In this document: positions 54 through 23,900 of the stretch, piece by piece | How the letters are laid out: each line of letters starts with the position of its first letter | How positions within the stretch are numbered: position 1 is the first letter of the stretch | DNA from: a virus | DNA length: 27,841 nucleotides | IMG/VR virus record: IMGVR_UViG_3300031963_006139 | Location: 1 to 27,841 of that record | Direction: 5' to 3' (one strand) | Position numbers and translations under genes: made by a program | Notes under the pieces: generated by a model | Told to the model about the DNA's origin: nothing | The model's input: only the letters and a program-made list of their open reading frames with translations | Database searches by the model: none

Positions 54-386
54 TCATCGTTTATCAGCAATAATTTTTAAAAGTTGTTTAAGGGCGGACC
101 TTTCGTTTGCATCAAGTAGTTTAATCTCGTTTTCATCAAGAGATTTTTTATTAATTTTGACAACTGGGTTTGCTTCTGTCACATCCATGTCTATAAATCC
201 TTTTTCCCAAAGTGTCATGGTAACTTCTGAAAAGTAACCACCGATAGCATTATCTAATTTTGGGTCAATATCTTTTAACATTTCTGTTTTTACATACATA
301 TTCTCCCCAGTTTCTGGATCTTTACCAGCAAACCGCAACCCTCCAGTCAAAATTAATTTTTGAAATATTCTTTCTGAATCTCTCAC
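54..386 (-). CDS. conserved hypothetical phage protein, 110 aa
   Basis: A 110-residue soluble protein with no membrane segment. It has no motif I can tie to a function. Visible features are a GKDPETGE turn near residue 21, a central MTLWEKGFIDMDVTE segment, and a Lys/Leu-rich C-terminal helix. The mixed alpha/beta character and charged surface look like a small conserved actinophage protein, but I assign no role. It starts at an ATG that overlaps the 3' end of the nuclease gene upstream by four bases, so the two are translationally coupled. Confidence that it is a real gene is high; function is unknown. Confidence 0.7.
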   Translation of the reverse strand: MRDSERIFQKLILTGGLRFAGKDPETGENMYVKTEMLKDIDPKLDNAIGGYFSEVTMTLWEKGFIDMDVTEANPVVKINKKSLDENEIKLLDANERSALKQLLKIIADKR

Positions 387-790
387 TTTCCAGACTTCTT
401 TCTTGCTTTTGCTAAAGCATCAAAATCTTTTACCTTGGTATCTCCAAGATAACCCCAAGCATAACCATCATTAATCATGTGATCATTAACAGAAACGGTG
501 TCTTCATTAACATATATCCATCCAAGTATTCTGCCATACTTTTCTGAAGAATCCATTTTTTCGGTTTTTATTACAACAGTTTTGGCATCTTTAAGAAACT
601 TTTTTAAATACTCTTTTGACTCAAGACCTAAAGCCTTTTCTGCTTTATCAGATGTGCGAGACTCTGGGGTATCAATACCAGCCAGTCTAACACGAGATGA
701 AAATAAAATGTCAAAACCTAAATCAATTAAAACGTCAATGGTATCTCCATCTACTACGTTTTCTACTTTTCTTACATAATATGTATACAT
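383..790 (-). CDS. thermonuclease (staphylococcal nuclease-like, SNase domain)
   Basis: A 135-residue calcium-dependent nuclease of the SNase (thermonuclease) family, expected to cut DNA or RNA phosphodiester bonds. The motif VDGDTI at residues 13-18 supplies metal-binding aspartates. RLAGIDTPE at 35-43 gives the family's first Arg, the Asp and the catalytic Glu43, and KYGR at 84-87 gives the second Arg. No signal peptide is seen, so it probably acts inside the host, for example in host DNA breakdown, unlike secreted staphylococcal nuclease. A strong Shine-Dalgarno (AAGGAGG, about six bases before ATG) fixes the start. The C-terminus ends with a Lys-rich tail. Confidence 0.92.
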   Translation of the reverse strand: MYTYYVRKVENVVDGDTIDVLIDLGFDILFSSRVRLAGIDTPESRTSDKAEKALGLESKEYLKKFLKDAKTVVIKTEKMDSSEKYGRILGWIYVNEDTVSVNDHMINDGYAWGYLGDTKVKDFDALAKARKKSGK

Positions 791-800
791 ATAAGCCTCC

Positions 801-1085
801 TTAGACCCAATACTTAATTATAGCAGTTATAGCCAAAATTGTCCAGAGGATATTGAACCAAATAATTGTAGGCAAAGTCTTTACTGTCGATGACCAAATC
901 AATGCAAGGCTTGATACCAATGCAAAGATGTATAGCCACCACCATTGCTTACCGAATAGTAAGCCTGGAAATATAATAGATATTTTTGTCATAAAAGCAA
1001 AGAACTCAACAGTATTTGGCTTGTTCCAATACTCTTTGTGTCTCATTGTCTTTAGAGCATTAATCCACTCTGTTCTAAATTTCAT
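801..1085 (-). CDS. small membrane protein, 94 aa, unknown function
   Basis: A 94-residue protein with a basic N-terminal segment (residues 1-25) followed by about three hydrophobic stretches, roughly 29-44, 48-66 and 72-92, and a Trp cluster (QWWWLY) at 47-52. It is therefore an integral membrane protein with a cytoplasmic basic N-terminus. GGAGGG about six bases upstream of the ATG supports the start, and that ribosome site lies inside the end of the halogenase gene, so the two are co-translated. The position might suggest a link to the halogenase cassette, but no family was recognised. A role as a small transporter subunit is only speculation. Confidence 0.65.
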   Translation of the reverse strand: MKFRTEWINALKTMRHKEYWNKPNTVEFFAFMTKISIIFPGLLFGKQWWWLYIFALVSSLALIWSSTVKTLPTIIWFNILWTILAITAIIKYWV

Positions 1086-2626
1086 TTTAATCCCTCCAAA
1101 AATTGCCTGTGATCAATACACTCTGCTATTTTATAATTTTGATAGTTATCGTAATATTCATACATACTAACTCCCTTTTTATAGTCAGTAGAGTTTTCTG
1201 TATATGTTTTAGCAACATTTTTATTGATTGTATCGTGTGCAGATCCAACAAATATCCAACTGTTTATTGTCCATTCATTGCCAGCATCTAAACTATTAGG
1301 CAACCTGCTGCCCCACTTATCCATTTTTTCTTTTAAATTTTTTGGTGACTTTTCATAAGAGAATTTTTTCCAAAAATCTGTATCTTTTCTTAATGTTATA
1401 TAATGAAAATAAATAAAATCAGAAATACTATTATTCATTTTTAATATAATACTATTGAATTCTTTTCTTATTTCTTTAGAGTTGCCACTTATCCATAAAG
1501 GGTTTTCGAATATTTGTGATAATTGCACCATACTTACCCAAATAGATGTTGCCTCTAATGGTTCAATAAAGTTTGCTGCAAGTCCTATTGCTACACAATT
1601 ATTTATCCACGGTTCTTCATAACATCCAGCATTAAATTTAAACCCACCCTTATCTTTTCTGGGGTATGTTGGCTCATATCCTAAAAAATCTTCTATTTCT
1701 TTTATTGCATCTTTTTCAGATATAAGAGATGAATCATATACATACCCGCAACCGAATCTTGTTTGAAGTGGTATTTTCCACATCCATCCATATTTCATTG
1801 CTATTGCCTCTGTATATGGAGGTATTCTATCTTCCATATCAATAAAAAATGGAATAGCAGAGTCAACAGGAAGAAAGTCTTTATAACTGTTCCATTTGGC
1901 ATTATATACTTTACCAATTATTAGTCTATGGAATCCGCTACAATCAAAAACAAAATCACACAGAATCTTTTCGTCATTTTCTAAAGTTAAACCATTTACA
2001 TAATTATCTTTATCTAGTGAGACATTTTTTATTGTACCATCAACTACTCTAATTCCTCTTTCTGTCCCTATTTCTTTTAGTCTGTTCGCTAGTTTAGTAG
2101 CGTTAAAATGTATAGAAATGTTTCCTATTTTTTTATAATCATCTATTGGATCTTTTTTAGAAACAAATCCAAAATCTCTCTTGTTTGCTTCCAAAGTAAA
2201 GGGGACTTTCCTGGCTTCTGAAATTTTTTCCATGAAGTCTATCTTATTTACGCTATTATTTAAAGATAGGCTTGCGACCATTAGTGGACTATTTGACAAA
2301 TATCTATCACTTAAAACATCAAAACCAAGTTGTTTGTCAGTTGTAGAAAATCCATGATAATAAAATCCTCCATCATTATTCCAGTTTGTAAACTTAATTC
2401 CGTTTTTTATTGTTGCATCACAATTTTTGATTAAGTCTGACAATGGTATATTTAAATGATTTAAAAAGTCTGTAAGGTATGGCGTAGAACCCTCTCCTGC
2501 ACCCAAAATTCCTATCTCTGTTGACTCTATAACAGTTATATCTAAATCTGGATACGATTTATGTGCTTTAAGTGCTGTAAGCCAACCAGCAGTTCCTCCA
2601 CCAACTACAACTATCTTTTTTTTCAT
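1082..2626 (-). CDS. flavin-dependent halogenase (tryptophan 7-halogenase family)
   Basis: A 514-residue FADH2-dependent halogenase. The family uses FADH2, O2 and halide to make hypohalous acid, which travels to a lysine beside the substrate. Visible features: dinucleotide-binding GGGTAGW at residues 9-15, GAGEGSTPYL at 42-51, a lysine in CDATIKNGIKF (K74) matching the catalytic Lys of PrnA-type enzymes, the diagnostic WxWxIP motif as WMWKIP at 281-286, and EPLEAT at 355-360, where E358 matches the conserved active-site Glu. Length is normal for the family (about 500-540). Start: ATG overlapping the preceding stop as TAATG. It lies at the end of an overlapping cassette with sulfotransferase and oxygenase genes. 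Substrate is unknown. Halogenases of this kind are known from a cyanophage (VirX1), so phage carriage has precedent. No flavin reductase is seen in the window. Confidence 0.93.
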   Translation of the reverse strand: MKKKIVVVGGGTAGWLTALKAHKSYPDLDITVIESTEIGILGAGEGSTPYLTDFLNHLNIPLSDLIKNCDATIKNGIKFTNWNNDGGFYYHGFSTTDKQLGFDVLSDRYLSNSPLMVASLSLNNSVNKIDFMEKISEARKVPFTLEANKRDFGFVSKKDPIDDYKKIGNISIHFNATKLANRLKEIGTERGIRVVDGTIKNVSLDKDNYVNGLTLENDEKILCDFVFDCSGFHRLIIGKVYNAKWNSYKDFLPVDSAIPFFIDMEDRIPPYTEAIAMKYGWMWKIPLQTRFGCGYVYDSSLISEKDAIKEIEDFLGYEPTYPRKDKGGFKFNAGCYEEPWINNCVAIGLAANFIEPLEATSIWVSMVQLSQIFENPLWISGNSKEIRKEFNSIILKMNNSISDFIYFHYITLRKDTDFWKKFSYEKSPKNLKEKMDKWGSRLPNSLDAGNEWTINSWIFVGSAHDTINKNVAKTYTENSTDYKKGVSMYEYYDNYQNYKIAECIDHRQFLEGLK

Positions 2627-2829
2627 TACTTTCTACCCCACTGTATTTTATTCCATCCACGCTCATGAAAATAATATAATATAGTTTTTGTAACAACCTC
2701 TAAACTTGCTATACTTGCAGCAATTACTGGCTTTTTAGTAATAAACCAAGATATGATGAATGTATCTGCAGTACCAACCATTCTCCATGTGATTGCTTTT
2801 ATTGCAGACCTAGATTTTGTTGCGTTCAT
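2626..2829 (-). CDS. DUF2061 family small membrane protein
   Basis: A 67-residue protein matching the DUF2061 pattern: a basic N-terminus with a Lys-Ala-Ile-Thr-Trp-Arg segment (residues 11-16), two hydrophobic helices at about 18-31 and 36-53, and the closing YYFHERGWNKI at 52-62. The family is predicted to be a two-helix inner-membrane protein of unknown role. I chose the ATG at 2829 because GGAG lies eight bases upstream; an upstream GTG at 2838 would put that site on top of the start. Its stop overlaps the halogenase ATG (TAATG). A second, divergent member lies at 6132-6350. Confidence 0.8.
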   Translation of the reverse strand: MNATKSRSAIKAITWRMVGTADTFIISWFITKKPVIAASIASLEVVTKTILYYFHERGWNKIQWGRK

Positions 2830-2874
2830 GATGGCCACTCCATGTTGTTAGGTTTAGTAATATAATCCCAAACC

Positions 2875-3633
2875 TTAGATGCCCATTTCTTTACGCTTCT
2901 GCGTAGCCGATATAGCATGAATCTCTGCCCCCAAATCTACTTGTTCAATCTTATATCCAACATCACGACCATAAACAATGTTAGTAATATTTGGTAATCT
3001 TAGTATTAGTGTATTTTTAAAAGGATTGTCTTGTTTGATATACCCTGCCACTTCATCATACATTAGTGGATCTTTTTCAGATGTCTTATAAGTATTTCTT
3101 ACACCAACTAATACTTGATCAGTTCTTTTGTGTGCCTCGTTTTTAAGAGCCTGATGACCCTCATGCCAAGGTTGATATCTGCCAAGTTGCAGAGTAGTAG
3201 GAGCAGACCAATCAAACAAACCACAGGCCTGTATTACTGTGTTTACTTCTTGCTCTACAGTATACCCTTCAAGAATTCTAATATGAAAGTTTATAGGATC
3301 TTTCCAAAGTTTGTTAGTGTCCTCAAACCTTCCTTCTTTTATTCTATCAACCCATACAATGATATCGGCAAAACCAAATGCACTTCTAGTCTCATCGTTA
3401 GGGCAAACAAAATCTACAATTACTGGAGCAACATTCTGTTTAGCAATTAGTCTTGCCATTTCTCCCATGCGCCTTGCTTGCTCAATTCTATCGGCTGGAG
3501 TAAAAGAAAGATCTGAATTAACTGTAGATCTTACCTCATCTGCATTAAGATGAATAGCATTAATTCTTTCTTTTAGTGCCTGTGCAAGCGCTGTCTTGCC
3601 AGAACCAGGCAGCCCAATAATTTGTATAATCAT
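2875..3633 (-). CDS. adenylylsulfate (APS) kinase fused to a HxGH nucleotidyltransferase domain
   Basis: A 252-residue two-domain protein. Residues 1-140 look like an APS kinase (CysC-like): P-loop GLPGSGKT at 7-14, LNADEVR at 29-35 in place of LDGDNVR, FVCPND at 75-80 in place of the SFISP segment, and the late DPINFHIRILEGY region. APS kinase phosphorylates adenylylsulfate to PAPS, the sulfate donor of sulfotransferases. Residues 145-252 carry nucleotidyltransferase signatures: LGRYQPWHEGH at 150-160 (HxGH) and ISATQKR at 241-247, like adenylyl- or cytidylyltransferases. ATP sulfurylase also uses an HxGH motif, but this domain is far shorter. The P-loop kinase could instead be a generic AAA_33-type kinase. 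The ATG overlaps the preceding gene, with GGAG upstream. A sulfotransferase lies two genes upstream. Confidence 0.78.
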   Translation of the reverse strand: MIIQIIGLPGSGKTALAQALKERINAIHLNADEVRSTVNSDLSFTPADRIEQARRMGEMARLIAKQNVAPVIVDFVCPNDETRSAFGFADIIVWVDRIKEGRFEDTNKLWKDPINFHIRILEGYTVEQEVNTVIQACGLFDWSAPTTLQLGRYQPWHEGHQALKNEAHKRTDQVLVGVRNTYKTSEKDPLMYDEVAGYIKQDNPFKNTLILRLPNITNIVYGRDVGYKIEQVDLGAEIHAISATQKRKEMGI

Positions 3634-4193
3634 CTTGTCTCCAATTCTTCATTTGGCATTATGTCAATGAGCAAATGAACTCTATCTATTTCACTATTAT
3701 TTTCTACAAGATGTGGTCTTGAATTGTTAATCTCCCAACACTCTCCAGCCTGCATACTTATCTTTTCATTTCCTACCCCAAAAAATACATTGTCTGAAGT
3801 TATTATTGGGATGTGGTTTCGTCTAGAAAACATAAGATAATCTCCAGAGTCAAAGTGTATTGCTATATCTTCTTTTGCTTTCAATTTAATTAATAAAACC
3901 ATTCCTCTAACTCCGTTATGAATATTTTCTAAATCTTTTATAATGGGCTCAAGTAGACCAACTAGTTTTTCATCATCTGATTCTTTTTTTACATAAAATG
4001 AGTCGCCCTCTTTCCAAAGAAGGTTAGCCCTATAAACAAAATATGAAACTGTATCTTTATGAACATCATAGTTATCTTGTCTTGATGTGTCTAATAGCCA
4101 CTCGCTAGAAAAATTTGAAATATGATTTTTTATTGCTTCAACACCATAAGTTGCATGCTTTTTAAAATTAAAATCTTCGCCAGTTTTTCTCAT
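3630..4193 (-). CDS. aspartyl/asparaginyl beta-hydroxylase-like 2-oxoglutarate oxygenase
   Basis: A 187-residue protein of the aspartyl/asparaginyl beta-hydroxylase fold (double-stranded beta-helix, Fe(II)/2-oxoglutarate). The metal and co-substrate residues are readable: H113 in IHFDSGDY (with D115), RRNHIPI at 124-130, the GECWEINN segment at 150-157, H161 in SRPHLVENN, and R171 in DRVHLLID. This His...His...Arg layout is typical of the family. Substrates in this family include peptide Asp/Asn and free amino acids or lipopeptide residues; here the substrate is unknown. The gene begins at an ATG four bases from the sulfotransferase stop and overlaps the APS kinase gene by four bases, so it is part of the same operon. 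Confidence 0.85.
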   Translation of the reverse strand: MRKTGEDFNFKKHATYGVEAIKNHISNFSSEWLLDTSRQDNYDVHKDTVSYFVYRANLLWKEGDSFYVKKESDDEKLVGLLEPIIKDLENIHNGVRGMVLLIKLKAKEDIAIHFDSGDYLMFSRRNHIPIITSDNVFFGVGNEKISMQAGECWEINNSRPHLVENNSEIDRVHLLIDIMPNEELETR

Positions 4194-4790
4194 TTACAGT
4201 TTCATCCAATCATCAAAGTTTGTGCTATATTTAAACAAGTCAAAATCAGCCTTGTATAGTGTTTTAACTATATCTATTATATCACTAGTGTAGTCGTTTA
4301 GGTATGATTCTACAGCATAATTACCGAGATTATATCTACCCAACTTCCAGTTAAAATCAGATTCAAGTTCTTTTAGATTTTCAAACTTATATATTTTATT
4401 AACTTGTATCTCATTATTTTCAGTAACGTAAAAAGACTGGGGGTAATGAAGCAGTGGAGTTGTTGGTGATATTATACTTTTTAATATATTTTCTAGATAA
4501 TCTTTAAAAGATATTTCTGTTTTATTGGTCTTGTTGTATTGCCTATAGCAACTATATGTTCTTGCATATGGATTTCTAACAACTGAGAAAGAAAAAACGC
4601 TTTGATCTATTGTATTTGCCATCTTTAAATATGAATATGGGTCATGATGTCTTGGCCATGCTCTGTTCCAGTTATCTAAGTTATTGTCATATAGTATTTT
4701 AGAAATAGAGGATCCAGCAGTTTTTGGTATATGTACAAACAATATTCCAGCGTATTCTTTATTATTAACTAACATGTTGTTTAATTTCAC
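4194..4790 (-). CDS. PAPS-dependent sulfotransferase (Sulfotransfer_2-like)
   Basis: A protein of up to 198 residues. HIPKTAGSS at residues 20-28 is the 5'-phosphosulfate-binding loop of PAPS-dependent sulfotransferases, and VVRNPYARTYSCY at 70-82 is the 3'-phosphate-binding segment (Arg72, Ser80). The order and spacing match the Sulfotransfer_2 / Gal-3-O and heparan type. It should transfer sulfate from PAPS to a hydroxyl, commonly on a carbohydrate. No transmembrane anchor is present, so it is predicted cytoplasmic. The longest frame starts at GTG 4790; an ATG at 4775 is the likelier start and still overlaps the preceding gene. The PAPS-forming kinase two genes downstream supports the assignment. 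Confidence 0.87.
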   Translation of the reverse strand: MKLNNMLVNNKEYAGILFVHIPKTAGSSISKILYDNNLDNWNRAWPRHHDPYSYLKMANTIDQSVFSFSVVRNPYARTYSCYRQYNKTNKTEISFKDYLENILKSIISPTTPLLHYPQSFYVTENNEIQVNKIYKFENLKELESDFNWKLGRYNLGNYAVESYLNDYTSDIIDIVKTLYKADFDLFKYSTNFDDWMKL

Positions 4791-5604
4791 TATTTATTTC
4801 TTTAATAAGTTTGTTAACTATTACATCATTCTCTTTGTTCCAAGATTCGTCCATATGTGTTACTTCAGTTACTACTAGCAAGTCAGTTATTTTTTCATCT
4901 TTAAGATTAAGTATTTGCTCTTTAACTGTTTCATAGTTTCCAATTATTGAAAAATTCATATGTCTTGGGTTAAGTGGTATAGTTATTTTTTTAAATTCTT
5001 CGATCTCTTTTTCTGATTCTATTATAGTAACAAAAGCAGAAACCATTCTATTTTTAATTCCATCAAACTTGTTTAAATTTTCTCTATATGTGTCTATCAT
5101 ACACAAAGATGTTCCACTAAACATTTTTGCTGTGTCCAATGTGTAATCAGAAAAACCACTAAATACCATGGGTGGCATTACTGATATGGGACAATACATT
5201 TTATACATTTTTACAAAATCTCTCAAAAAGGTAGTTCTTTTTTTTATTGTATCTGTTAAATCTGATTTTCCAAAAATATCAAACTCTATGTCTGGCTCAT
5301 CACTTCTGTTATGAAAATCTCCAGCAACCCAATTAAAAACAAGTCTGCCTTGATCTATTTCATTGTATGCCATTGTCATCATCGAACAATACTGAGGGCT
5401 TACATGATATGGCCTTAGCGCTATCATATATTTTAGTTTATGCCCTGGAACAATTGCAGCAGCAGATTTTATAAAATAATCTGCTTGACTAGAATGAAAT
5501 GTTAGTAGAACTGATTCATAACCAGCGTCCTCTAGTCTATAAGAAAGATCTCTTAATTCTTCAACATTACAATGTTGATCTCTCAACATATAGTGCAGTC
5601 TCAT
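4765..5604 (-). CDS. luciferase-like flavin monooxygenase (SsuD/alkanesulfonate monooxygenase type)
   Basis: A 279-residue LLM-class flavin-dependent monooxygenase. The N-terminal beta-alpha repeats include LSYRLEDAGYESVLLTFHSS (about 20-39), and the family segment around RPYHVSPQYCSMMT through DQGRLVFNWVAGDF (about 64-96) matches the SsuD pattern of ALRPG...SP...GR...N.V.G. These TIM-barrel enzymes use reduced FMN and O2; SsuD releases sulfite from alkanesulfonates, others oxidise ketones or sugars. It is shorter than SsuD (about 380), with part of the barrel's insertions missing, so the substrate is uncertain. No flavin reductase is visible. It is the first gene of the overlapping tailoring cassette and overlaps the sulfotransferase start. 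Confidence 0.85.
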   Translation of the reverse strand: MRLHYMLRDQHCNVEELRDLSYRLEDAGYESVLLTFHSSQADYFIKSAAAIVPGHKLKYMIALRPYHVSPQYCSMMTMAYNEIDQGRLVFNWVAGDFHNRSDEPDIEFDIFGKSDLTDTIKKRTTFLRDFVKMYKMYCPISVMPPMVFSGFSDYTLDTAKMFSGTSLCMIDTYRENLNKFDGIKNRMVSAFVTIIESEKEIEEFKKITIPLNPRHMNFSIIGNYETVKEQILNLKDEKITDLLVVTEVTHMDESWNKENDVIVNKLIKEINSEIKQHVS

Positions 5605-5607
5605 TTT

Positions 5608-5835
5608 TTAATTTATTTTTTCTCGCTCGTCAACAATGGAAATGGCAAATTTCATCATGCTATCATAGCCAACAGCGTTGTCCATAATTTTATTATAATG
5701 GTGTCCGCAGAAAAATAACTCTCCAGAAATTCCAGAAACTTTTACTAGTGCCTCAGCACCACACTTGTCGCAGCGATCCTGTGGACCAAGAGTCCAAGTT
5801 TTTTCTTCTTCCTTTGACTGTAACATACTAAACAT
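5608..5835 (-). CDS. small zinc-binding protein (DUF7455-like)
   Basis: A 75-residue protein with DRCDKCGAEALVKV at residues 20-33 (C22, C25) and GELFFCGHH at 38-46 (C43, H45/H46). This is a treble-clef or zinc-ribbon pattern common in small actinobacterial and actinophage proteins (DUF7455-like). The function is unknown; DNA, RNA or protein binding is possible. I prefer the ATG at 5835, with GAAGGG six bases upstream and immediately after the FmdB-like stop, over an upstream frame start at 5877 that would overlap that gene by 41 bases. Confidence 0.72.
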   Translation of the reverse strand: MFSMLQSKEEEKTWTLGPQDRCDKCGAEALVKVSGISGELFFCGHHYNKIMDNAVGYDSMMKFAISIVDEREKIN

Positions 5836-5836
5836 A

Positions 5837-6022
5837 TTATACCCTTCTATTGTCAGTTTTATAGAACCCAGAGCCATTAAATGTGACTCCTATATTAGAG
5901 TATACACGAACTAAGTCTTTATTGCAAGTTTCACATTTGTACCCTGGGTCCTCATCGGACATAGATCTAACCTTTATATATCTTGTAGCACAAGACATAC
6001 AATCATATTCATATGATGGCAT
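5837..6022 (-). CDS. FmdB-family zinc ribbon protein
   Basis: A 61-residue zinc ribbon. MPSYEYDC followed by MSC gives the first pair C8/C11, and YKCETC gives the second pair C30/C33; the FmdB/regulatory-zinc-ribbon family starts with exactly this P-x-Y-x-Y-x-C form. The tail contains FNGSGFYKTDNR, also typical of the family. The role in phages is unknown; it is often called a putative regulator. Start TAATG overlaps the preceding short ORF. Confidence 0.88.
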   Translation of the reverse strand: MPSYEYDCMSCATRYIKVRSMSDEDPGYKCETCNKDLVRVYSNIGVTFNGSGFYKTDNRRV

Positions 6023-6132: not shown

Positions 6133-6350
6133 TACTTTACCTTCTTTCCAAACTTAGCCCAGATTCTTTCATGAAGGTAGAAGAAAGTCATTTCTAGTGT
6201 TAGATATGAAAGTCCGTAAAGACCAACATACTCCCACTCTGCCTCTCCAGTATAGTACTTTAAAACGAAATAAATTATTCCAGAAACAAAAGTAAAATGT
6301 ACGAATGGCCAACTTATAGTCTTTAGCAATGACTTTCTTCTTGACTCCAT
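6132..6350 (-). CDS. DUF2061-like small membrane protein
   Basis: A 72-residue two-helix membrane protein. RRKSLLKTISWPFVHF (3-18) corresponds to the R-S-x-x-K-x-x-x-W-R start of DUF2061, and the ending EMTFFYLHERIWAKFG (about 53-68) carries the family's YxHERxW motif. The inner part is divergent, with EWEYVGLYGLSYL in the middle, so this is a distant copy of the protein at 2626-2829. It begins in a TAATG overlap with the endolysin stop. That position could suggest a role near lysis, but the family function is unknown. Confidence 0.72.
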   Translation of the reverse strand: MESRRKSLLKTISWPFVHFTFVSGIIYFVLKYYTGEAEWEYVGLYGLSYLTLEMTFFYLHERIWAKFGKKVK

Positions 6351-6988
6351 TATAGTGCCACCTGTGGCTTTCCTCCGCCACCTGCTGACTTCTTTTTCTT
6401 TTTCTTTGGAGCAGCATCATGTGATGTTGGTACATCAGAAGATCCAACCTTGCTAAGAAGTGGAAGATTCTCTTCTCCAGCATACACTGGACGACCCCAA
6501 CCAACAACAGCATTAACCAATTTCTTTTTATTATTTTTTACATATGCACGAGTCTTTTCTACGCACATACCGCCATTTCTTTGATCGCCTTTTGCAGTGC
6601 CTGAAGTGTTTCCTTCAATAACCTGAATTGTTCCATCTCCATTATTTTTTACACAAAGACCAACATGAGAAATTCTGTTAACGCCATCGTCTGGGAAATC
6701 AAAATAAATCCAGTCTCCTGGAGTTGGATCGTCGTTACGAGCATCTGCCCAACGATTATTTTTCTTAAACCAATCTGATGCTGCAATTGTTGCTGCAGTC
6801 TTTGGGTATTTCTTTGGATCTAGGCCTGCAGTAAATGCACACCAAGAAACAAATGATTGGCACCAAGGCAAAAAGTTTGCACCTGTCCATTTTCCATACT
6901 TTGTTTCATTATCTTTTGGACCTTCAATGGTTCCAACTTCTTTTTTTGCAACCTCAATGATTGCTTCTAAACTTCCTTTTACGGACAT
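6350..6988 (-). CDS. CHAP-domain endolysin (peptidoglycan hydrolase)
   Basis: A 212-residue peptidoglycan hydrolase with an N-terminal CHAP domain (about 8-165). The catalytic residues can be placed as C43 in LPWCQSFVSW, H108 in ISHVGL, and E125/N127 in IEGNTSG. CHAP enzymes act as amidases or endopeptidases on cell-wall peptides. No signal peptide is present, so it probably leaves the cell through a holin. There is no recognisable cell-wall-binding domain; the C-terminus is a linker with a run of six Lys, then SAGGGG. A consensus promoter and an AAGGAGG ribosome site lie directly upstream, implying strong expression. Holin-like genes lie 2.6-3.1 kb upstream. Confidence 0.9.
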   Translation of the reverse strand: MSVKGSLEAIIEVAKKEVGTIEGPKDNETKYGKWTGANFLPWCQSFVSWCAFTAGLDPKKYPKTAATIAASDWFKKNNRWADARNDDPTPGDWIYFDFPDDGVNRISHVGLCVKNNGDGTIQVIEGNTSGTAKGDQRNGGMCVEKTRAYVKNNKKKLVNAVVGWGRPVYAGEENLPLLSKVGSSDVPTSHDAAPKKKKKKSAGGGGKPQVAL

Positions 6989-7920: not shown

Positions 7921-8793
7921 TTAACTACGAATGTAAGACGATGACCCAATCAAAATTTTTGAAAGAGACGATAGGTACTCTCCAAATGATTTTAATGTAT
8001 TTTTGCTTACATATGAGGCTGATGCAACTGCAGTAGCAACGGATGATCCATATGCAACTGCTGGAGAACCATTATATTTAGTGATTTTTACTCCAGACAT
8101 AGCGACCATATCTAACCCAGGACCTCGGTTGGTTGCTGCTTCAAGTTGAGTTGCAGTAGCCAAAGCCCCCACCCCAATAACTCCATTAACACATGAAGGA
8201 AAGCCTACAACATCTTGTCTACGATCATTTCCTGTTGCAACAAACACTGGAACATTGTTTGCATTTAATGATGATACAGCATTTATTGTTTGTGTATCTG
8301 TTGTGCATCGTGATAGGTTGTCAGCAGAAACCGAAGACTGGCTAATTGATAAAGCATCAATGCTATATTTAGATGCATTCTTTGATACCCAATCAATTGC
8401 TGCTGTTAGTGCTCTAACATCTCCCCTTGAATTTCCAATGCTTGTAACATCATTGAACCTAATAAATACAATCTTAATGTTAGGATCTACTGTAAGTGCA
8501 GATTTAACCATGCTGTCGCCATGATATGTTGCATTATTAACAGATGTTGGCCATGGGGCAGACGCTGCGCCCTTGCCCTCCATAAACAATTCACCATTTG
8601 GGCATGACATATTTTGAGATACAACCTTTGACTTTACTGTTGTAAAACAAACCTCATGAATAATTTGAGGGAAATTATTAGAGTTAATGGCGCTATCAAT
8701 AATTGCCAAAACCTTTTGATCATTTGCCTGTGAAGGCTGAATTACAGTAACTAAAAGTAGTGCTGATAGTATTGCTATTAGTGTCTTTTTCAT
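7921..8793 (-). CDS. secreted subtilisin-like serine protease (S8 family)
   Basis: A 290-residue subtilase. Residues 1-23 form a clear signal peptide (MKKT, a hydrophobic core, then QPSQAND), so it should be exported. Catalytic residues fall in order: D33 in AIIDSAIN, H91 in TYHGDSM, oxyanion Asn189 in VATGND, and S251 in YGSSVATA. Four Cys in the mature part suggest disulfides. It is compact and lacks an obvious long propeptide, so it may be active without processing. Secretion by a phage-encoded protease is unusual; it might act on host surface proteins during release, or help host growth. AAAGGA seven bases before the ATG sets the start. Confidence 0.88.
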   Translation of the reverse strand: MKKTLIAILSALLLVTVIQPSQANDQKVLAIIDSAINSNNFPQIIHEVCFTTVKSKVVSQNMSCPNGELFMEGKGAASAPWPTSVNNATYHGDSMVKSALTVDPNIKIVFIRFNDVTSIGNSRGDVRALTAAIDWVSKNASKYSIDALSISQSSVSADNLSRCTTDTQTINAVSSLNANNVPVFVATGNDRRQDVVGFPSCVNGVIGVGALATATQLEAATNRGPGLDMVAMSGVKITKYNGSPAVAYGSSVATAVASASYVSKNTLKSFGEYLSSLSKILIGSSSYIRS

Positions 8794-10111: not shown

Positions 10112-11728
10112 TTACCTCCTCATTCCAATTACCGAAGCGACTATGTTAGAAACAAGTACTACTGGGATAATTACTTCTTGTGCTTTTTCTCTCTGATCGT
10201 CCGTCATATCCATACCTAACTCAGAGAAATTAGATAGGAGTTCTGCTGGATTTATATTTAATATTGCTCCCAAAGGATCTGCCAAGAATGCTTCTGTTTG
10301 TATTTCTGTGACTGCATCTGCCAATGTATATGGCATTGGGGCATCTTCATTTTCTGCTGCCTTTTCAGCAAACTCAACAACTGCTGCTGCAACTGCAGGA
10401 TTTTCTTTTGCTAATTCTGCTATCAATGCTACTTCTTCTGTTTTAATACCTAAATCTTCTGCCAACTCTTTTGATTGTTCTGGATTTAGTTCAGTTAGGA
10501 ATGTTGATACTGCTGACATTAATTTGGCATCATTAACACTAATTAGTTTATTTAACTTTTTAAGTTCCTCGTCAGAAATAGGATCGCTGTCTGTGTTATC
10601 CTTATCTGGTGTTACTACAGGATCTTCGTCAACAGATTGCTCAGGTTCAGGCTCTGGGCTTGGATCTGTATCCTCTGGCTGAGGTGAAGGCTCTTGTGAA
10701 GGTTCTGGAGTTGGATCAGTCTCTTCGTTCTCCCCATCTGTGGTATCAGGGCTTGGAGAAGGATTGGGATCTTCTGGTTCAGTTTGCTCTTCATCATCAG
10801 GGAATCTTGGATCCTCTGGTGTAATAATTTCTGGTTCTACCTCAACATCAGGTTCAGGCAAATCAGGCTCTTCTGTAACATCAGGACTTGGCTCTGGTGA
10901 AGGTTCTGGCTCAACTTCCTCTACTGGTTCTTCTCCATTTATAGCAGCAATAAGATTATTTAAATCTGATATTTGATCAGCCAATTGTGCTGCCTCTGCC
11001 ACCTGTTCTTGCTGTTCTTCTGGCGTTATAGGCGTTTGGGAAGGCGTTGGCTCAGGGATAGGGGTAGGGCTTGGAGTAGGCTCTGGAATAGGCTCTGCAG
11101 CCAATGTAGGGGTTGGCTCTCCAGCCTGTACCTGTGTTGCCCCCCAAGCCTCGAGTGATACTATAGATCCGTCATGAAGACGAACACCTGTTCTAAGATT
11201 ATTATACTCTGGTCCTTGATAACTATAAGATACTGCCAAACCACCTGTATTAGTAATAGCCACTAATATATTTACTGTGCTTGGCTGTGCACCATAGTTA
11301 CCAAATGGAACCATATTAAGGTTTAATTGGAATCCACCTTCTGAATAATATATGTCCAAACCAGATGTTCCGCTTGCTCCTGGAAACCAATCCATTGAGT
11401 ATAAAGAAATTGAAGGGGTAGATGGATAGGTATGAAATGTTCCATCTGGTTGACCAAATGTAATTACAGAGTTAGTTGTTGCATAAATGTTTTCATACTG
11501 TACCCCGTCAAAAGTCACGGTAGTTGCAATAGGTATTTGATAAGATATATCGTCTCCAGAGCAGGTGTCCATATGATGAACTGTTGGCTCTGCATCACCC
11601 TCGTATGCTGCTGCTATGGTTTGTGATTGTATAAAGTTAACGCATGTCGCATTGGCATTTTCTGGAAGCCAAAGATTGAATCCAAAGGCTAACAGGAACG
11701 CAGACACTATTCTTGTTAATTTTTTAAT
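10112..11728 (-). CDS. exported Pro/Glu-rich linker protein, unknown function; apparent ATT start
   Basis: About 538 residues. Reading from ATT at 11728 gives M-KKLTRIV-SAFLLAFGFN ending PENANA, a complete signal peptide with a basic head. The nearest standard start, GTG 11707, would remove the two lysines. GGAGG lies seven bases before the ATT. After the signal come about 190 residues of beta-rich sequence (FDGVQYENIYATTNSVITF, resembling secreted adhesive domains), a long linker dense in PEP, PSP and PEPTP repeats (about 200-400), and a helical C-terminal part ending in a hydrophobic segment and RR. The repeats and export signal suggest a surface or envelope-spanning protein. The two small membrane genes follow directly. 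Confidence 0.75.
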   Translation of the reverse strand: MKKLTRIVSAFLLAFGFNLWLPENANATCVNFIQSQTIAAAYEGDAEPTVHHMDTCSGDDISYQIPIATTVTFDGVQYENIYATTNSVITFGQPDGTFHTYPSTPSISLYSMDWFPGASGTSGLDIYYSEGGFQLNLNMVPFGNYGAQPSTVNILVAITNTGGLAVSYSYQGPEYNNLRTGVRLHDGSIVSLEAWGATQVQAGEPTPTLAAEPIPEPTPSPTPIPEPTPSQTPITPEEQQEQVAEAAQLADQISDLNNLIAAINGEEPVEEVEPEPSPEPSPDVTEEPDLPEPDVEVEPEIITPEDPRFPDDEEQTEPEDPNPSPSPDTTDGENEETDPTPEPSQEPSPQPEDTDPSPEPEPEQSVDEDPVVTPDKDNTDSDPISDEELKKLNKLISVNDAKLMSAVSTFLTELNPEQSKELAEDLGIKTEEVALIAELAKENPAVAAAVVEFAEKAAENEDAPMPYTLADAVTEIQTEAFLADPLGAILNINPAELLSNFSELGMDMTDDQREKAQEVIIPVVLVSNIVASVIGMRR

Positions 11729-11765: not shown

Positions 11766-11796
11766 ATTATATCATTTAATTAAGATTATCTATCAA
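11766..11796 (-). promoter_or_regulatory. candidate promoter for the Pro-rich/holin-like operon
   Basis: TTGATA (11796-11791) and TATAAT (11771-11766) are separated by 19 bases, within and just after the end of the oxygenase gene. The spacer is longer than the ideal 17. The box is about 38 bases before the ATT start, leaving room for the operator and GGAGG site. Confidence 0.42.
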
Positions 11797-12351
11797 TAAT
11801 CCTGCCCTTGGACCGTCACACCAGACCTCGTGTGAGTTTTCAAGTGGAAGATAAAGCATGTCACCTGGCCTAAGTTCGTAAGTCGTTCCACCATCTATTT
11901 TCCAAAATGATGTACCAACTATTTGCCAATAAAAAATATCGTGTGGATCATGATGATCGCTTACATTCCTGTTAGAAAGAGACATCCTTATCCCTTGAAA
12001 ATGCCAGTCACTGTTACAATTATGTTGTCCTTGATTATAATATCCGCAATGCCTATTATCTACAGAGTTGTTAAGTTTATACAATAGTTCTGAAACACCT
12101 TTAAAATCTTCAAATATATTGTGTGTCTGTGGGGCAAGCCAAAATTTTTCCTGTATTTGTATGTTTCCTATATAGTCTAATGCTGTAAGATTATTTACTT
12201 GCTCTACCTTTTTCTTTAAATTGTCATTTTTTATTATTGATTCTTTATATACAAAATTCATTATATCTTCCCAGGTTATTTCTGGAATTTGGTATTGCTC
12301 AAACAAAACTGCATGACTATTTTCTTTTGCGTTTTTTATTAAATCTAACAT
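11776..12351 (-). CDS. cupin/JmjC-type Fe(II) oxygenase-like protein
   Basis: A 191-residue protein of the cupin/JmjC-type fold. SDHHDPHDIFYW at 131-142 holds a likely HxD pair (H133, D135), and ENSHEVW at 171-177 gives the distal His174, the usual His-Asp...His iron site. GDMLYLPLENSHEVW matches the cupin pattern G(D)xLYxPxxxxH, and R182 in GPRAGLLID could bind 2-oxoglutarate. Protein or amino-acid hydroxylases of the ribosomal-oxygenase type look similar. The substrate is unknown. An extended -10 box sits six bases before its ATG with no ribosome site, so it is probably leaderless. It follows a strong terminator and stands as its own unit. Confidence 0.8.
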   Translation of the reverse strand: MLDLIKNAKENSHAVLFEQYQIPEITWEDIMNFVYKESIIKNDNLKKKVEQVNNLTALDYIGNIQIQEKFWLAPQTHNIFEDFKGVSELLYKLNNSVDNRHCGYYNQGQHNCNSDWHFQGIRMSLSNRNVSDHHDPHDIFYWQIVGTSFWKIDGGTTYELRPGDMLYLPLENSHEVWCDGPRAGLLIDNLN

Positions 12352-12421: not shown

Positions 12422-13570
12422 TTACTTAAGTGTGGCAACCTTAGCCTTTGGATTAGCCTTGTTCCACTTTGCAGCAAGAGAATTGAATGCCTTCTTGATT
12501 GCAGCAAGTGCAGCAGCATTGTCTGCCTTTACCTTATCAAGTTCAGCCTTTGCAGCAGCCTGAGCATCTGCAAGAGCCTTGTCTGCAGCAACCTTAGCGG
12601 TTACAGCATCAGCCTTCAACTTAGCAATTTCAGCAGCAGCAGTAATAGCAGCAGCATCGGCAGCAGCCTTAGCAGCAACTGCATCTGAAGCAGCCTTTGC
12701 TACAGCAGCAGCAAGAGCAGCATCTGCAGTTACCTTGTCAGCAGCACGAGCAGCCTTTTCTGCAGCGAGTGCAGCATTAGCAGTTGCGAGTGCTCCAGCA
12801 AGATCTGAAACTGTTACGATTGCAGTCTGTGAAGTTGTGGCCAACTTAATTGTTGGAACTGATGTAGGTGCAGTAATAGATGCACCAACAGCAACGGTTC
12901 CAGCAGTAGCAGGAAGTGTAATGTCTGATGTGTAACGACCTGTTACAAGAGCATCAGCAGTGACTGTTCCAGCAGTTGCACCACCAAGAGTGGTTACTGT
13001 TACTGTATCAGCAACAGCGTTTCCAAAGATATCAGCAACATCAAGAGTTGCAGTTACCTTACCAGAAATGTTTCCTGAAGCAGGAATTGACATCTTAAGA
13101 TCGTATGCAGGACCTGCAACACCCTTAAGATATAGTGTTGTTGCTGCACCAGTTACAGAAACTGTAACTGCAGAAGCAGCAGTTGTAGTTGTATATGCAT
13201 AGACAGTCGCTGTTGTTGAAGCAGGTGTGACTGTGATTGATGAGGATCCAGCAGATGCACTAACTGTTGAACCAATTGCAGAGACGAGGCGAGTGTTTGC
13301 GCCTACTGCTGTAAATGTTACTGGTGTTCCAGCAACTACAGTTGCAGTAAGAAGCAATGCTTCGTTGTTTGTTACAGTTGTGGTGTCTGCAACGCTTACT
13401 ACGTTGTCAGATGGAACCTTAACTGTGAATGGTGAGGCTGCAGTACCTGAGCCAGAAATTTCTGTTGTTACGTCTACAGAAACGGTATTGGCACTTGCAG
13501 GTGTCACTACTAGTGTGCCCAAGCCCATGGCTGCAACCATGACGAGAGCGATCTTCTTAAATGAATTCAT
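12422..13570 (-). CDS. exported Ala/Thr/Val-rich protein with Ig-like and coiled-coil regions
   Basis: A 382-residue protein. MNSFKKIALVMVAAMGLGT plus TPASANT is a classic signal peptide with Ala-x-Ala cleavage. Residues ~25-250 are Thr/Val/Ala-rich beta sequence resembling repeated Ig-like or surface-protein domains, then a heptad-like Ala/Lys/Asp coiled coil (about 255-360) and a short basic tail (KWNKANPKAKVATLK). It resembles surface proteins of small planktonic actinobacteria, suggesting host origin or mimicry. A role in host surface change or virion decoration is speculative. AGGAG four bases before the ATG at 13570 is the reason I reject the longer start at 13591. A strong terminator follows. 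Confidence 0.72.
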   Translation of the reverse strand: MNSFKKIALVMVAAMGLGTLVVTPASANTVSVDVTTEISGSGTAASPFTVKVPSDNVVSVADTTTVTNNEALLLTATVVAGTPVTFTAVGANTRLVSAIGSTVSASAGSSSITVTPASTTATVYAYTTTTAASAVTVSVTGAATTLYLKGVAGPAYDLKMSIPASGNISGKVTATLDVADIFGNAVADTVTVTTLGGATAGTVTADALVTGRYTSDITLPATAGTVAVGASITAPTSVPTIKLATTSQTAIVTVSDLAGALATANAALAAEKAARAADKVTADAALAAAVAKAASDAVAAKAAADAAAITAAAEIAKLKADAVTAKVAADKALADAQAAAKAELDKVKADNAAALAAIKKAFNSLAAKWNKANPKAKVATLK

Positions 13571-13596
13571 TTTTCTCCTTTTATTATTCATTCGGT

Positions 13597-19946: not shown

Positions 19947-20949
19947 TTAGTTTGTTCTTGATAAACTCTTGCAAGTCAAGATCCTCTCTTACACGATTAA
20001 CAAATGCCTCTTTACCCTGAACTTTTGTCCCATCTGGAAGCATGTACCATGCCCCAGTTCTTTCTATTACGCCATTTAGTTCTGCTGTTGTAACTAAATC
20101 ACCAATAGTATCTAATCCAACATTGTCCCCTCTGAAATAAAAGTCATACTCTCCTGATTGAAACCCTGGAGATGTTTTAGAAAATTGAAGTTCCCACCTA
20201 ATAGTTCTTCCAATTTTTTCTTCAATCAACTTATCTCCTACTTTAATTTTTCCTTTAATCGCCTGATTGTCTGACTCGGAACTAAATAACTTAATAACGC
20301 AAGAAGAGTAAAACTTAGTAGCCTGACCACCAGAAGGCTGCTGGCTAGTATACATAGCATTAATGTTATTACGAGACTGGCTAATAAGAACAAGCAAAGT
20401 AGGCTTAACTTTATTGTTAGCATAGTTAAGCATTTTCCATGCGTTACTAAAGTCACGAGACTCTGCTCCAATCTGCTTTGTATTTTCCAAAGGCTTCATT
20501 TCGTCAGTGTCCTTTTCAAAATATATTGCAGGAAGCATTGACGTAATAGAGTCTACCACAATTAAATCAACTCCAGCATTCATTAGAGCAACTCCAACAT
20601 CTACCATGTCGCTTATAGTTCTTGCCTGTGAGTAGATTAATTTTTCTGGATCTACCCCCATCTTACGAGCCCATTCCTCTGAGTATGACATTTCTGAGTC
20701 AATCCAAGCACATAATTTTCCTTCTGCTTGCGCTAGAGCAATCATTTGAAGGCACATAGAAGACTTTGCGGATGATTTGCTACCCCAAATAAGTACTTGA
20801 CGACCATATGGAAGTCCTCCACCAAGTGCACGATTTAAACCAAAACTAGGAGTTGGTTGGTATTCAAAGTTAACACCGACACCGCTTCCAAGTCTTTTTC
20901 TCAACTTGGGATCAAGTTGTGCTAACGCTTCTTCTAAACTAACTGACAT
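19939..20949 (-). CDS. recA: RecA-like recombinase with an altered Walker A
   Basis: A 336-residue RecA-family protein. ATPase core: GSKSSAKSS at 56-64 is the P-loop, where the usual Gly before Lys is Ala (A61); WIDSE at 82-86 gives the catalytic Glu; LIVVDS at 129-134 is Walker B; and GGQATKFYSS matches the strand-exchange loop-2/GG-x-ALKFYAS region. It forms DNA strand-exchange filaments, here for phage recombination or recombination-dependent replication. I start at ATG 20949, since GGAGG lies six bases upstream, rather than 20955. It overlaps the DnaE gene end. It lacks the acidic C-terminal tail of cellular RecA. Confidence 0.93.
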   Translation of the reverse strand: MSVSLEEALAQLDPKLRKRLGSGVGVNFEYQPTPSFGLNRALGGGLPYGRQVLIWGSKSSAKSSMCLQMIALAQAEGKLCAWIDSEMSYSEEWARKMGVDPEKLIYSQARTISDMVDVGVALMNAGVDLIVVDSITSMLPAIYFEKDTDEMKPLENTKQIGAESRDFSNAWKMLNYANNKVKPTLLVLISQSRNNINAMYTSQQPSGGQATKFYSSCVIKLFSSESDNQAIKGKIKVGDKLIEEKIGRTIRWELQFSKTSPGFQSGEYDFYFRGDNVGLDTIGDLVTTAELNGVIERTGAWYMLPDGTKVQGKEAFVNRVREDLDLQEFIKNKLNG

Positions 20950-23900
20950 GTACATCCTCCAATGTTACGGTTCCGTCTTTTGTTTTTCCAAATTCAAATT
21001 TATAATATTTTCCTTCTTCAATATGCATGTAAGCCTTTGCAAAAGATGTTGGAAATACTGTTATTGAGTGAAGATCTCTTTTTGTATCTGCAAGGGTTAA
21101 TGATGCCATCTTCTTTCCAGCCTTTGTTACTCTTGGCTTAAAAGATACTACAAACATTTCATCATCTTTATATGGCAACTGTCTATACCCTAAAAATTTT
21201 ACCAAGGCACTTGAAGAATCTTTTATTTGCTCAGATGGAATGAAAGATACAATCCTGTTATCATTACAAAGAACCAAATAAGAACGACCCGTCTCAATAG
21301 TGGTATTTTCATCATCGAATATACCGACAGACCCAGTCTTGTCCAAAATTTCAACTCGTGACCATCCTGTTCCCCTCTTAATAGATTTTACCATACCCAT
21401 AAAAATATAAGATCCTTTTTCTTCAAAGTCTACAATGTCTTGAATGAAAGCATAGTAGTGTGAAGGAATTGTTATATTAAATTCTGGAAGATTTAAATAC
21501 TCATATAGGTTTTCTTTTATTTCCTGATCATTTCTTGGATTATCTGGAAATGTTGCTGCCCCAATTGCTCTAAGTGCTTGAAGCGCTCTACTATTTACTC
21601 CATTGCCTTTTGTGAATGTAAACTGCTCAAGTTCTGCATAAGACTTAAAAGGTCGTGCCGATATATATCGTTCTGCAATCTTATCAGAGATAAACTTGAT
21701 CCCCGAGAGTCCAAACCGAATACCTTTACCTTCAATTTTAAAATCAATATCCGAATCGTTAATATGAGGTAGTTTAATGCTAATCCCCATTCTCTTCGCT
21801 TCAATAAGATATTCAGTTCGTGCATCTTTGTCTCCCTCATTTTTTAATACAGAATACATAAACTCAAGTGGGTAGTAATACTTTAACCATGCTGTCCAAT
21901 AGGATAGCGTTGAATATGCTACTGCGTGAGACTTATTGAATGAATACCCTGCGTGAGCCTCAAAATCATGCCACAAGTCTAAAGCAGCATGCGGAGTAAT
22001 AAAACGAGATGCTCCTTCAACGAATCTATCTTTAAACTGATCAAACTCTTTTGCATCCTTTTTCTTTCCAATAATCTTACGAACTTTGTCAGCCTCTGAC
22101 ATAGACATTCCACCAATATGTACGCAGGCCTGCATAACCTGTTCTTGATACAAAATACAACCGTAAGTATCTTCTGTAAACTCTTTAAGAATCTGATGAA
22201 TATATGCTATATTTTGTCGTCCATGTTTTCTTTCAATATAGTCTTTTCCAATTGTATTCATTGCGCCTGGACGAACAAGAGCATTAGATGCAGCAAGTTC
22301 TGACAAATTTTTAACACCCATTTTTACAAGAAGGTTTGTATATGGCGCTGCTTCACACTGAAATACGCCCTTGGTATATCCTTCAGATAGCATTTGATAT
22401 ACATTATGGTCATCCATTTTTATACTAAGAAGATCAATCTTTTTTCCATGCCTATCTTTAATTATATCAATAGTATCCTTTAGAACTGATAAGGTTTTAA
22501 GACCTAGCGCATCAATCTTGATAAGCCCAATCTTTTCAGCCTCTTCCATATCAATTCCAACAACTGGTATCCGATCATCAGATCCAGTAGAAGAACGAGT
22601 TTCCAATGGCGCATACCTAAAGATCGGATCCTTACTAGTAACAACACCAGCAGCATGAACGCCAGTACCCCTAATACGACCACGAAGTTGCTCACCATAT
22701 ATTTCCACCTCTGGATATTTTTCACGAAACTCTAATGTTGATTTTGATGTACAGTAATCATCCCAAGAGTCTACTGTTTTTAAAACTTTGTTCACATCTG
22801 ACAAAGGTATATTTAAAACTCTGGCAACATCTCTAACTATGCCCTTACCAGTAAATTGTAAAAATGTTGCAATAGAAGCAACATGCCTATACTGTCTAAC
22901 AAGATAATCCTTAACTTCTTCACGACGAGTATCTTGAATATCTGTATCAATGTCTGGAAAATCATTACGCTCTGGGTTAATAAATCGAAAGAACAAAAGA
23001 TTATGTTTTATGGGGTCAATGTCAGTAATCCTCAATGCGTAGCAAACCAAAGACCCAGCGGAAGATCCACGACCAGGACCAACCAATATATCTTCTTTCT
23101 TTGCCCAACTGATCATGTTGCTAACAACAAGGAAGTATGGAGCAAACTTTTTATCTTTGATGATTTGCAACTCTTCATTAAGTCTGTCTACATAAACCTG
23201 ATTTTCAGCCAAACCTCTTTCTTTCAAACCTTCAAGAGCAACCCTAGCAAGTTCTTTGTCTGGACTCTTATATTGTACTGGCAATAGGTTTAAACCTTCT
23301 TGAATGTCATAGTCTTCAATAGTATTTGACAAAAGTATTGTGTTTGTATATATATCTTCTCTATCAATGCCCTGAGATTTCATGGCTGACTTCATTTCTT
23401 CATAGGACAGTAAATGAATGTCAAACTTATTAAATGTAATCTCTCTATCTTTACCATATAGCAAGTCTAGCCTTTGCATCATATCAGACTGTTTTGCTGA
23501 CTTAGCATATGTTACATCCTTTGACACTTTTGCATGCGTATTCATGATTAGTTTAAACTCTTGAATTTCTTTTTGCCCTGGATGAGAATGGTGGCAGTCT
23601 GGAGTAACAATAGCCTTTATATTAAACTCATCTGCTAGTTCTAAAAGATATTTGTTTATGTGTGCTTCATTGTGTGGCATGACCTCAATATAATAATCAT
23701 TGCCAAATTGCTCCTTAAACCAAGATATATACTTTTTAGCAAGAGCAAACTCTTCTTCTTCTAGTGCTTTAACTAGCACACTGCTTGGACATGCTGAAGA
23801 AACTATAATACCTTCTTTATATTTTTCTAATGTCTTAAAATCAAATCTAGGCTTTTTAAAATAGCCATCTGTCCATGCTATCTCGCTAATTTTATTTAAA

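Follow-up and report, generated by a model that had tools for sequence, protein, structure and literature searches.

Flavin-dependent halogenases encoded by phages are already known. VirX1 is described as one of them (Gkotsi et al. 2019, cited in PMC10452541), tryptophan-halogenase-like auxiliary metabolic genes (AMGs) occur in cyanophages and pelagiphages, with a halogenase in 20 of 153 cyanophages (PMC10452541), and the halogenase of the lake Actinomycetia phage DSL-LC01 has been reported as an AMG (PMC10611076). Here, we analyze a 27.8-kb virus record from IMG/VR (IMGVR_UViG_3300031963_006139; its full 27,841 nucleotides are referred to as the window) that carries a halogenase gene, HAL, within an islet of seven genes. 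All are read from the minus strand in head-to-tail order and encode a luciferase-like oxidoreductase (LUX), a sulfotransferase (ST), a 2-oxoglutarate (2OG)/Fe(II) hydroxylase (BOH), a kinase/nucleotidyltransferase fusion, a DUF2061 protein, HAL, and a small membrane protein, M801. We find that the islet consists of separable units, namely, HAL with M801, BOH with ST, and the kinase fusion with DUF2061, joined by an optional LUX, and not of one fixed pathway. We know of no natural substrate for phage halogenases despite the years for which they have been known; a membrane partner that is near-invariant and apparently restricted to viruses, together with a hydroxylase-sulfotransferase unit that recurs, provides two testable clues to their site and target.

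HAL belongs to the same PF04820 family as VirX1 and the cyanophage halogenases and has the catalytic Lys, Glu, and WxWxIP motif in common with them. Its identity to phage halogenases is about 25 to 41%, and its PDB match to VirX1 scores 162 bits. DSL-LC01 is a freshwater actinophage, as the virus of the window probably is, but its halogenase is only 29.5% identical to HAL. Collagen-repeat genes lie two genes ahead of it and a glycosyltransferase gene comes immediately after it, with no M801, ST, or BOH annotated beside it. Several VirX1-type loci sit among fiber, structural, or 2OG-oxygenase genes, and M801 is unmatched in the phage collection. The first-pass annotation of this DNA knew of no description of the combined route, and our literature search found no paper joining phage, tryptophan halogenase, and sulfotransferase. 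New in this analysis are a membrane partner of the halogenase seen only in viruses, a hydroxylase-sulfotransferase unit that recurs while its sulfotransferase-like family is exchanged, and the kinase/NMNAT-like fusion as a frequent neighbor of that unit.

Islet enzymes retain their catalytic residues

HAL matches PF04820 with 336.5 bits (cutoff, 21) and contains the GxGxxG motif, the catalytic Lys and Glu, and WxWxIP; its relatives in the PDB are the Trp halogenases and VirX1. Residues K74, E358, W281, W283, I285, and P286 are invariant across 29 aligned sequences, which agrees with the earlier observation that Lys74, Glu358, and the WMWKIP motif are kept and that the enzyme looks active. ST matches PF03567 (39.1 bits; cutoff, 22) and PHROG 3347, annotated as galactose-3-O-sulfotransferase (E = 1.6e-15). 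Both of its motifs for 3'-phosphoadenosine 5'-phosphosulfate (PAPS) are present, IPKTAGSS (5'-phosphosulfate binding, 5'-PSB) and RNPYxRTYS (3'-phosphate binding, 3'-PB), and residues P22, K23, T24, G26, S28, R72, R77, and S80 are invariant in 19 sequences. BOH matches PF05118 (49.2 bits; cutoff, 22.6), and its Fe(II)-binding HxD...H triad and 2OG-binding Arg are intact, with H113, D115, H161, and R171 invariant in 17 sequences. Thus, none of the three enzymes shows the loss of catalytic residues that would have spoken against function. Because these residues are invariant in 17 to 29 diverse relatives and the dN/dS values of the islet genes (0.08 to 0.32) indicate purifying selection, these enzymes are very probably functional.

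HAL and M801 are nearly inseparable

We used the best 80 of 159 HAL loci and found at least 568 loci with M801. A halogenase gene adjoins M801 in 188 of 199 testable copies, a count that includes contigs fetched more than once. Most of the exceptions carry a more divergent halogenase at that spot; the true exceptions are L195, with no halogenase, and L288, where an M801-like gene adjoins two sulfotransferase genes. M801 is 72 to 97% conserved among its relatives, and no homolog was found in 84,980 cellular genomes or in 50,697 phage records. M801 is thus probably a virus-specific and obligate-looking partner of the halogenase.

No flavin reductase of the PF01613 family was found in the 14 contigs searched, and the reduced flavin would therefore come from the host or from another reductase family. 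A search for cellular relatives of HAL gave 11 loci, with Gammaproteobacteria at about 40% identity and neighbors that are uninformative by eye. One contig from this search, L396, is binned as Verrucomicrobia TMED56 and is likely misbinned, as it looks like a phage with a Gly-rich fiber-type gene, several 2OG oxygenase genes, and a halogenase gene.

Islet genes recur as separable units

To avoid ascertainment bias, we sampled 57 loci through the flanking gene DUF7455. HAL occurs in 14 of these anchored loci, M801 in 15, ST in 15, BOH in 27, and the kinase fusion in 41. M801 is present in all 14 HAL loci and in 1 of the 43 others, and ST in 13 and 2 of them, respectively, while DUF2061 accompanies the kinase fusion in 41 of 41 cases. 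Sulfotransferase-like families beyond PF03567 score poorly against Pfam and were detected by motif and BLAST linkage. With motif-based detection, 20 anchored loci bear a sulfotransferase; BOH is present in all 20, and the kinase fusion lies within 1.2 kb of the sulfotransferase in 19, so that both links are stronger once the motif-only families are counted. Sulfotransferase loci fall into three arrangements with different sulfotransferase-like families (L342/L350/L385, L327/L347, and the window type). Beyond this sample, ST was found at no fewer than 166 loci, and of the 30 with the most distant ST (L281 to L310), 14 also carry BOH.

Among 30 long contigs, HAL is present in 16, together with PF03567 in 7, BOH in 10, and the kinase fusion in 11 of these; the complete set of HAL, ST, BOH, and fusion is found in 6 of the 30. 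The fusion occurs without HAL in 11 long contigs. In the 112-kb contigs G017 and G022, the fusion is present and no sulfotransferase was detected; the 120-kb contig G012 combines three sulfotransferase-like genes with BOH, HAL, and M801 and lacks the kinase fusion. The marine T4-like loci L292 and L294 carry a run of ST (41% identity), BOH (43%), a 2OG oxygenase, and HAL (36%); they differ from the window in having no M801, DUF2061, or fusion and in additional Sulfotransfer_3 and 2OG oxygenase genes. This joint recurrence of halogenase, sulfotransferase, and hydroxylase bears out the first-pass idea of a phage-borne tailoring cassette. The single route of hydroxylation, sulfation, and halogenation proposed with it is not supported by the refuting condition set in that annotation, as the genes occur in related phages in two partly independent units rather than as one obligatory pathway.

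The kinase fusion and LUX

The kinase fusion, for which we found at least 591 loci, is an abundant and uncharacterized viral enzyme family. Its N-terminal domain resembles adenosine 5'-phosphosulfate (APS) kinase (Pfam APS_kinase, 56 bits), and its C-terminal domain resembles nicotinamide mononucleotide adenylyltransferase (NMNAT), with the motifs GRYQPWHEGH and ISATQKR. All 50 PDB matches listed by Foldseek for its AlphaFold2 (AF2) model (pLDDT, 88) are APS kinases or PAPS synthetases, with TMt values of 0.56 to 0.79 for single-domain chains. The fusion shares the P-loop kinase fold of CysC and PAPS synthetase but differs from them in its NMNAT-like C-terminal domain and in the absence, in the 12 family members aligned, of the RDPKGLYKKARAGELRN segment of the CysC substrate lid that follows the RDPKGLY motif. 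It also scores only 53.1 bits against the apsK equivalog TIGR00455 (cutoff, 138.7). An APS kinase supplying the sulfotransferase with PAPS had been proposed; the fold and the proximity to sulfotransferase genes fit this proposal, but the equivalog score and the incomplete lid do not. The order of kinase and then nucleotidyltransferase resembles that of animal PAPS synthetase. We considered a compact PAPS synthetase with an ATP-sulfurylase-like GRD motif and rejected it, since NMNAT models fit better: ATP-sulfurylase domain models do not match the C-terminal half, and CTP_transf_like is found in 23 of 24 family members.

PHROG 10255, labeled "kinase," contains full-length homologs of the fusion (37 to 41% identity) from phages Bhz60, AhaSv, 33, and DLP_6 of Stenotrophomonas, Xanthomonas, and Clavibacter. 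The gene directly follows a NADAR gene in three of these phages (L083 to L085), with no sulfotransferase annotated nearby, a neighborhood that makes an NAD or ADP-ribose function possible. The product may therefore be PAPS or that of an NAD-type reaction, and PAPS synthesis is plausible given how often the fusion lies close to a sulfotransferase gene. The DUF2061 protein itself matches PF09834 with 78.8 bits (cutoff, 23.1; E = 4e-22). In one bacterial locus (L459, 4000-5500), a proteobacterial CysN continues in one open frame into DUF2061, beside CysD. As a marker of sulfate activation, DUF2061 is weak, being present in 44 of 200 proteobacterial genomes and linked to CysN/CysD in 1 of 20 loci examined.

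LUX was thought to be SsuD-like and possibly to free sulfite. It scores 43 bits against the SsuD equivalog TIGR03565, far below the cutoff of 518.2, and 23.2 bits against PF00296 (Bac_luciferase; cutoff, 27.9). Its AF2 model (pLDDT, 83) matches the F420-dependent KvPepI and the FMNH2-dependent SfnG/SsuD folds about equally, so the SsuD assignment is not upheld. Many related phages also carry, some 3 kb downstream of HAL, a luciferase-like gene of another family, LUX2 (about 23% identity to LUX), in some cases in tandem (e.g., L003, 12491-13381; L036, 12862-14594).

A proposed envelope-directed islet and its alternatives

We tentatively propose, with a probability of roughly 45%, that the islet is a modular set of tailoring genes carried by large freshwater actinobacteriophages and directed at an acceptor that belongs to the envelope of the infected cell or is associated with its membrane. 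Three features favor an envelope acceptor: the islet adjoins lysis genes, it encodes two small membrane proteins, and the neighbors that vary among related islets are of the surface-chemistry type, with a carbamoyltransferase gene and, by eye, glycosyltransferase-like and sugar-nucleotidyltransferase-like genes. In the first unit, HAL would use host FADH2, O2, and halide to form an enzyme-bound hypohalite or haloamine at K74 and would halogenate an electron-rich acceptor, and M801, with three predicted transmembrane segments, would probably dock HAL at the cytoplasmic membrane. In the second, BOH would install a hydroxyl that ST would then cap with sulfate from PAPS. The kinase fusion with DUF2061 would be a likely, though not obligatory, cofactor supply for this second unit, and LUX an optional additional redox enzyme. 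The acceptor may be a glycoconjugate or a lipid, and the use may be an altered host surface late in infection. If the acceptor is indeed an envelope component, phages would use halogen and sulfate to remodel the surfaces of abundant freshwater actinobacteria, a chemistry for which we found no description in phages in the literature searched. A more specific version is unlikely: that M801, as a virus-specific partner, turns a soluble halogenase into a membrane-docked one whose acceptor is linked to a lipid or embedded in the membrane. This two-part system would so far be confined to phages and, in many of them, be coupled to a hydroxylase and sulfotransferase served by a compact PAPS-forming kinase-nucleotidyltransferase of their own.

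Several results weigh against the envelope proposal. A tree of the flanking genes leaves only 4 supported independent HAL contrasts, so co-occurrence is inflated by relatedness; ST tracks HAL in about 2.5 of the 4, with none opposite, which is not significant. Almost no contrast runs counter to the HAL-M801, HAL-ST, or BOH-ST association, and none of these reaches significance. G005 to G008 (55 to 92 kb) have HAL and M801 without ST, BOH, or the kinase fusion. Finally, several other phage groups have their halogenase genes next to tail-fiber genes: in Syn10, the phage that encodes VirX1, Gly_rich_2 fiber genes are followed by two tandem halogenase genes and 2OG oxygenase genes, and the P-SSM2 halogenase gene adjoins fiber-assembly genes. 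The last point makes virion modification a serious rival, if a somewhat unlikely one, in which the hydroxylase, sulfotransferase, and halogenase would modify tail-fiber or capsid proteins, such as Gly-rich or collagen-like fibers, and thereby alter adsorption or stability. Halogenase genes lie at or near fiber-type genes also in DSL-LC01 and L396, often with several 2OG oxygenase genes, and G012, a relative of the window phage, has prolyl-hydroxylase-like genes amid fiber genes as well as collagen-repeat proteins. However, it is these genes and not HAL that sit among the fiber genes of G012, where some 35 kb separate the islet from the collagen-like genes; among phages of the window's group, the islet adjoins lysis genes, and a dedicated membrane partner would be unexpected for the modification of virion proteins.

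It is quite unlikely that the islet encodes one linear pathway, with PAPS from the fusion serving ST and with BOH, HAL, and LUX acting on the same molecule. The APS-kinase-like fold, the short distance to 19 of 20 sulfotransferases, the complete set in 6 long contigs, and the CysN-DUF2061 fusion of one bacterium are consistent with it. So is a host that might lack PAPS, if the host is assigned correctly, as low-GC freshwater actinobacteria require reduced sulfur (PMC7527133). Yet HAL is found without the sulfation unit (G005 to G008), the fusion without a detected sulfotransferase (G017 and G022), and sulfotransferases without the fusion (G012), and neither the apsK comparison, the lid, nor LUX fits such a pathway. 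We regard as equally improbable that independent accessory genes are parked in a hotspot and reside together without joint function. The modules do occur apart and in differing orders, and the phylogeny-controlled association is not significant, but the pairing of HAL with M801 and that of the fusion with DUF2061 hardly vary, BOH is found with each sulfotransferase of the anchored sample despite the changing sulfotransferase family, and the run of ST, BOH, and HAL is repeated in unrelated T4-like phages.

Layout of the window and other observations

The large terminase of the window shares 55% identity with its counterpart in Streptomyces phage StarPlatinum, and a WhiB gene (PF02467) is present in related loci; the host is therefore most likely an actinobacterium. 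With its low GC content and its relatives from lakes, the virus probably belongs to hosts of a freshwater lineage. The first-pass annotation described five overlapping enzyme genes in head-to-tail order. All five are present on the minus strand, but the two small membrane protein genes, DUF2061 and M801, were missed, and not every junction overlaps. LUX/ST overlap by 26 bp, BOH/kinase fusion by 4 bp, DUF2061/HAL by 1 bp, and HAL/M801 by 4 bp, across the halogenase stop codon; ST and BOH abut, and a 36-bp gap separates the fusion from DUF2061, which precedes HAL. The gene order is identical in the independent contig L003 (98 to 100% identity), and a chimera or assembly artifact is ruled out by the repetition of this order in independent contigs.

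Table 1. Features of the islet and its borders in the window
Feature	Position	Strand	Basis or remark
SNase-like gene, bordering the islet downstream	383..790	-	PF00565; after M801 in most loci
M801, 94 aa, three hydrophobic segments	801..1085	-	hydropathy
HAL, flavin-dependent halogenase, 514 aa	1082..2626	-	PF04820 (Trp_halogenase)
DUF2061 small membrane protein	2626..2838	-	PF09834
Kinase/nucleotidyltransferase fusion, 252 aa	2875..3633	-	APS_kinase Pfam match
BOH, 2OG/Fe(II) hydroxylase, 187 aa	3630..4193	-	PF05118 (Asp_Arg_Hydrox)
ST, Sulfotransfer_2 family sulfotransferase, 198 aa	4194..4790	-	PF03567
LUX, luciferase-like oxidoreductase, 279 aa	4765..5604	-	PF00296 match below the cutoff; optional islet member
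DUF7455 zinc-ribbon gene, bordering the islet upstream	5608..5877	-	PF24254
CHAP endolysin, upstream of the islet	6350..6988	-	PF05257

In contig L002 (13389 bp), DUF2061-HAL-M801-SNase is 100% identical to the window, and ST and BOH lie further upstream at 69 to 81% identity. This contig also has duplicated SNase/DUF genes; either the halogenase unit was transferred recently or the contig is chimeric. G012 (L405 to L410) additionally encodes a catalase-peroxidase-like protein (PF00141) and glutathione-peroxidase-like proteins, and its prolyl-hydroxylase-like genes among the fiber genes number six. Elsewhere in the window, a GlcNAc-type glycosyltransferase (PF11397; 16447-17523) and a JmjC/cupin-type oxygenase (11776-12351) are candidate modifiers of surfaces or proteins. 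A Pro/Glu-repeat protein (10112-11707), an Ala-rich coiled protein (12422-13591), and an S8-protease-like fragment (PHROG 3677; 7921-8793) are apparently exported, which is unusual for a lytic-type phage. The window also encodes a bacterial-type DNA polymerase III alpha subunit with a PHP domain (20939-24214).

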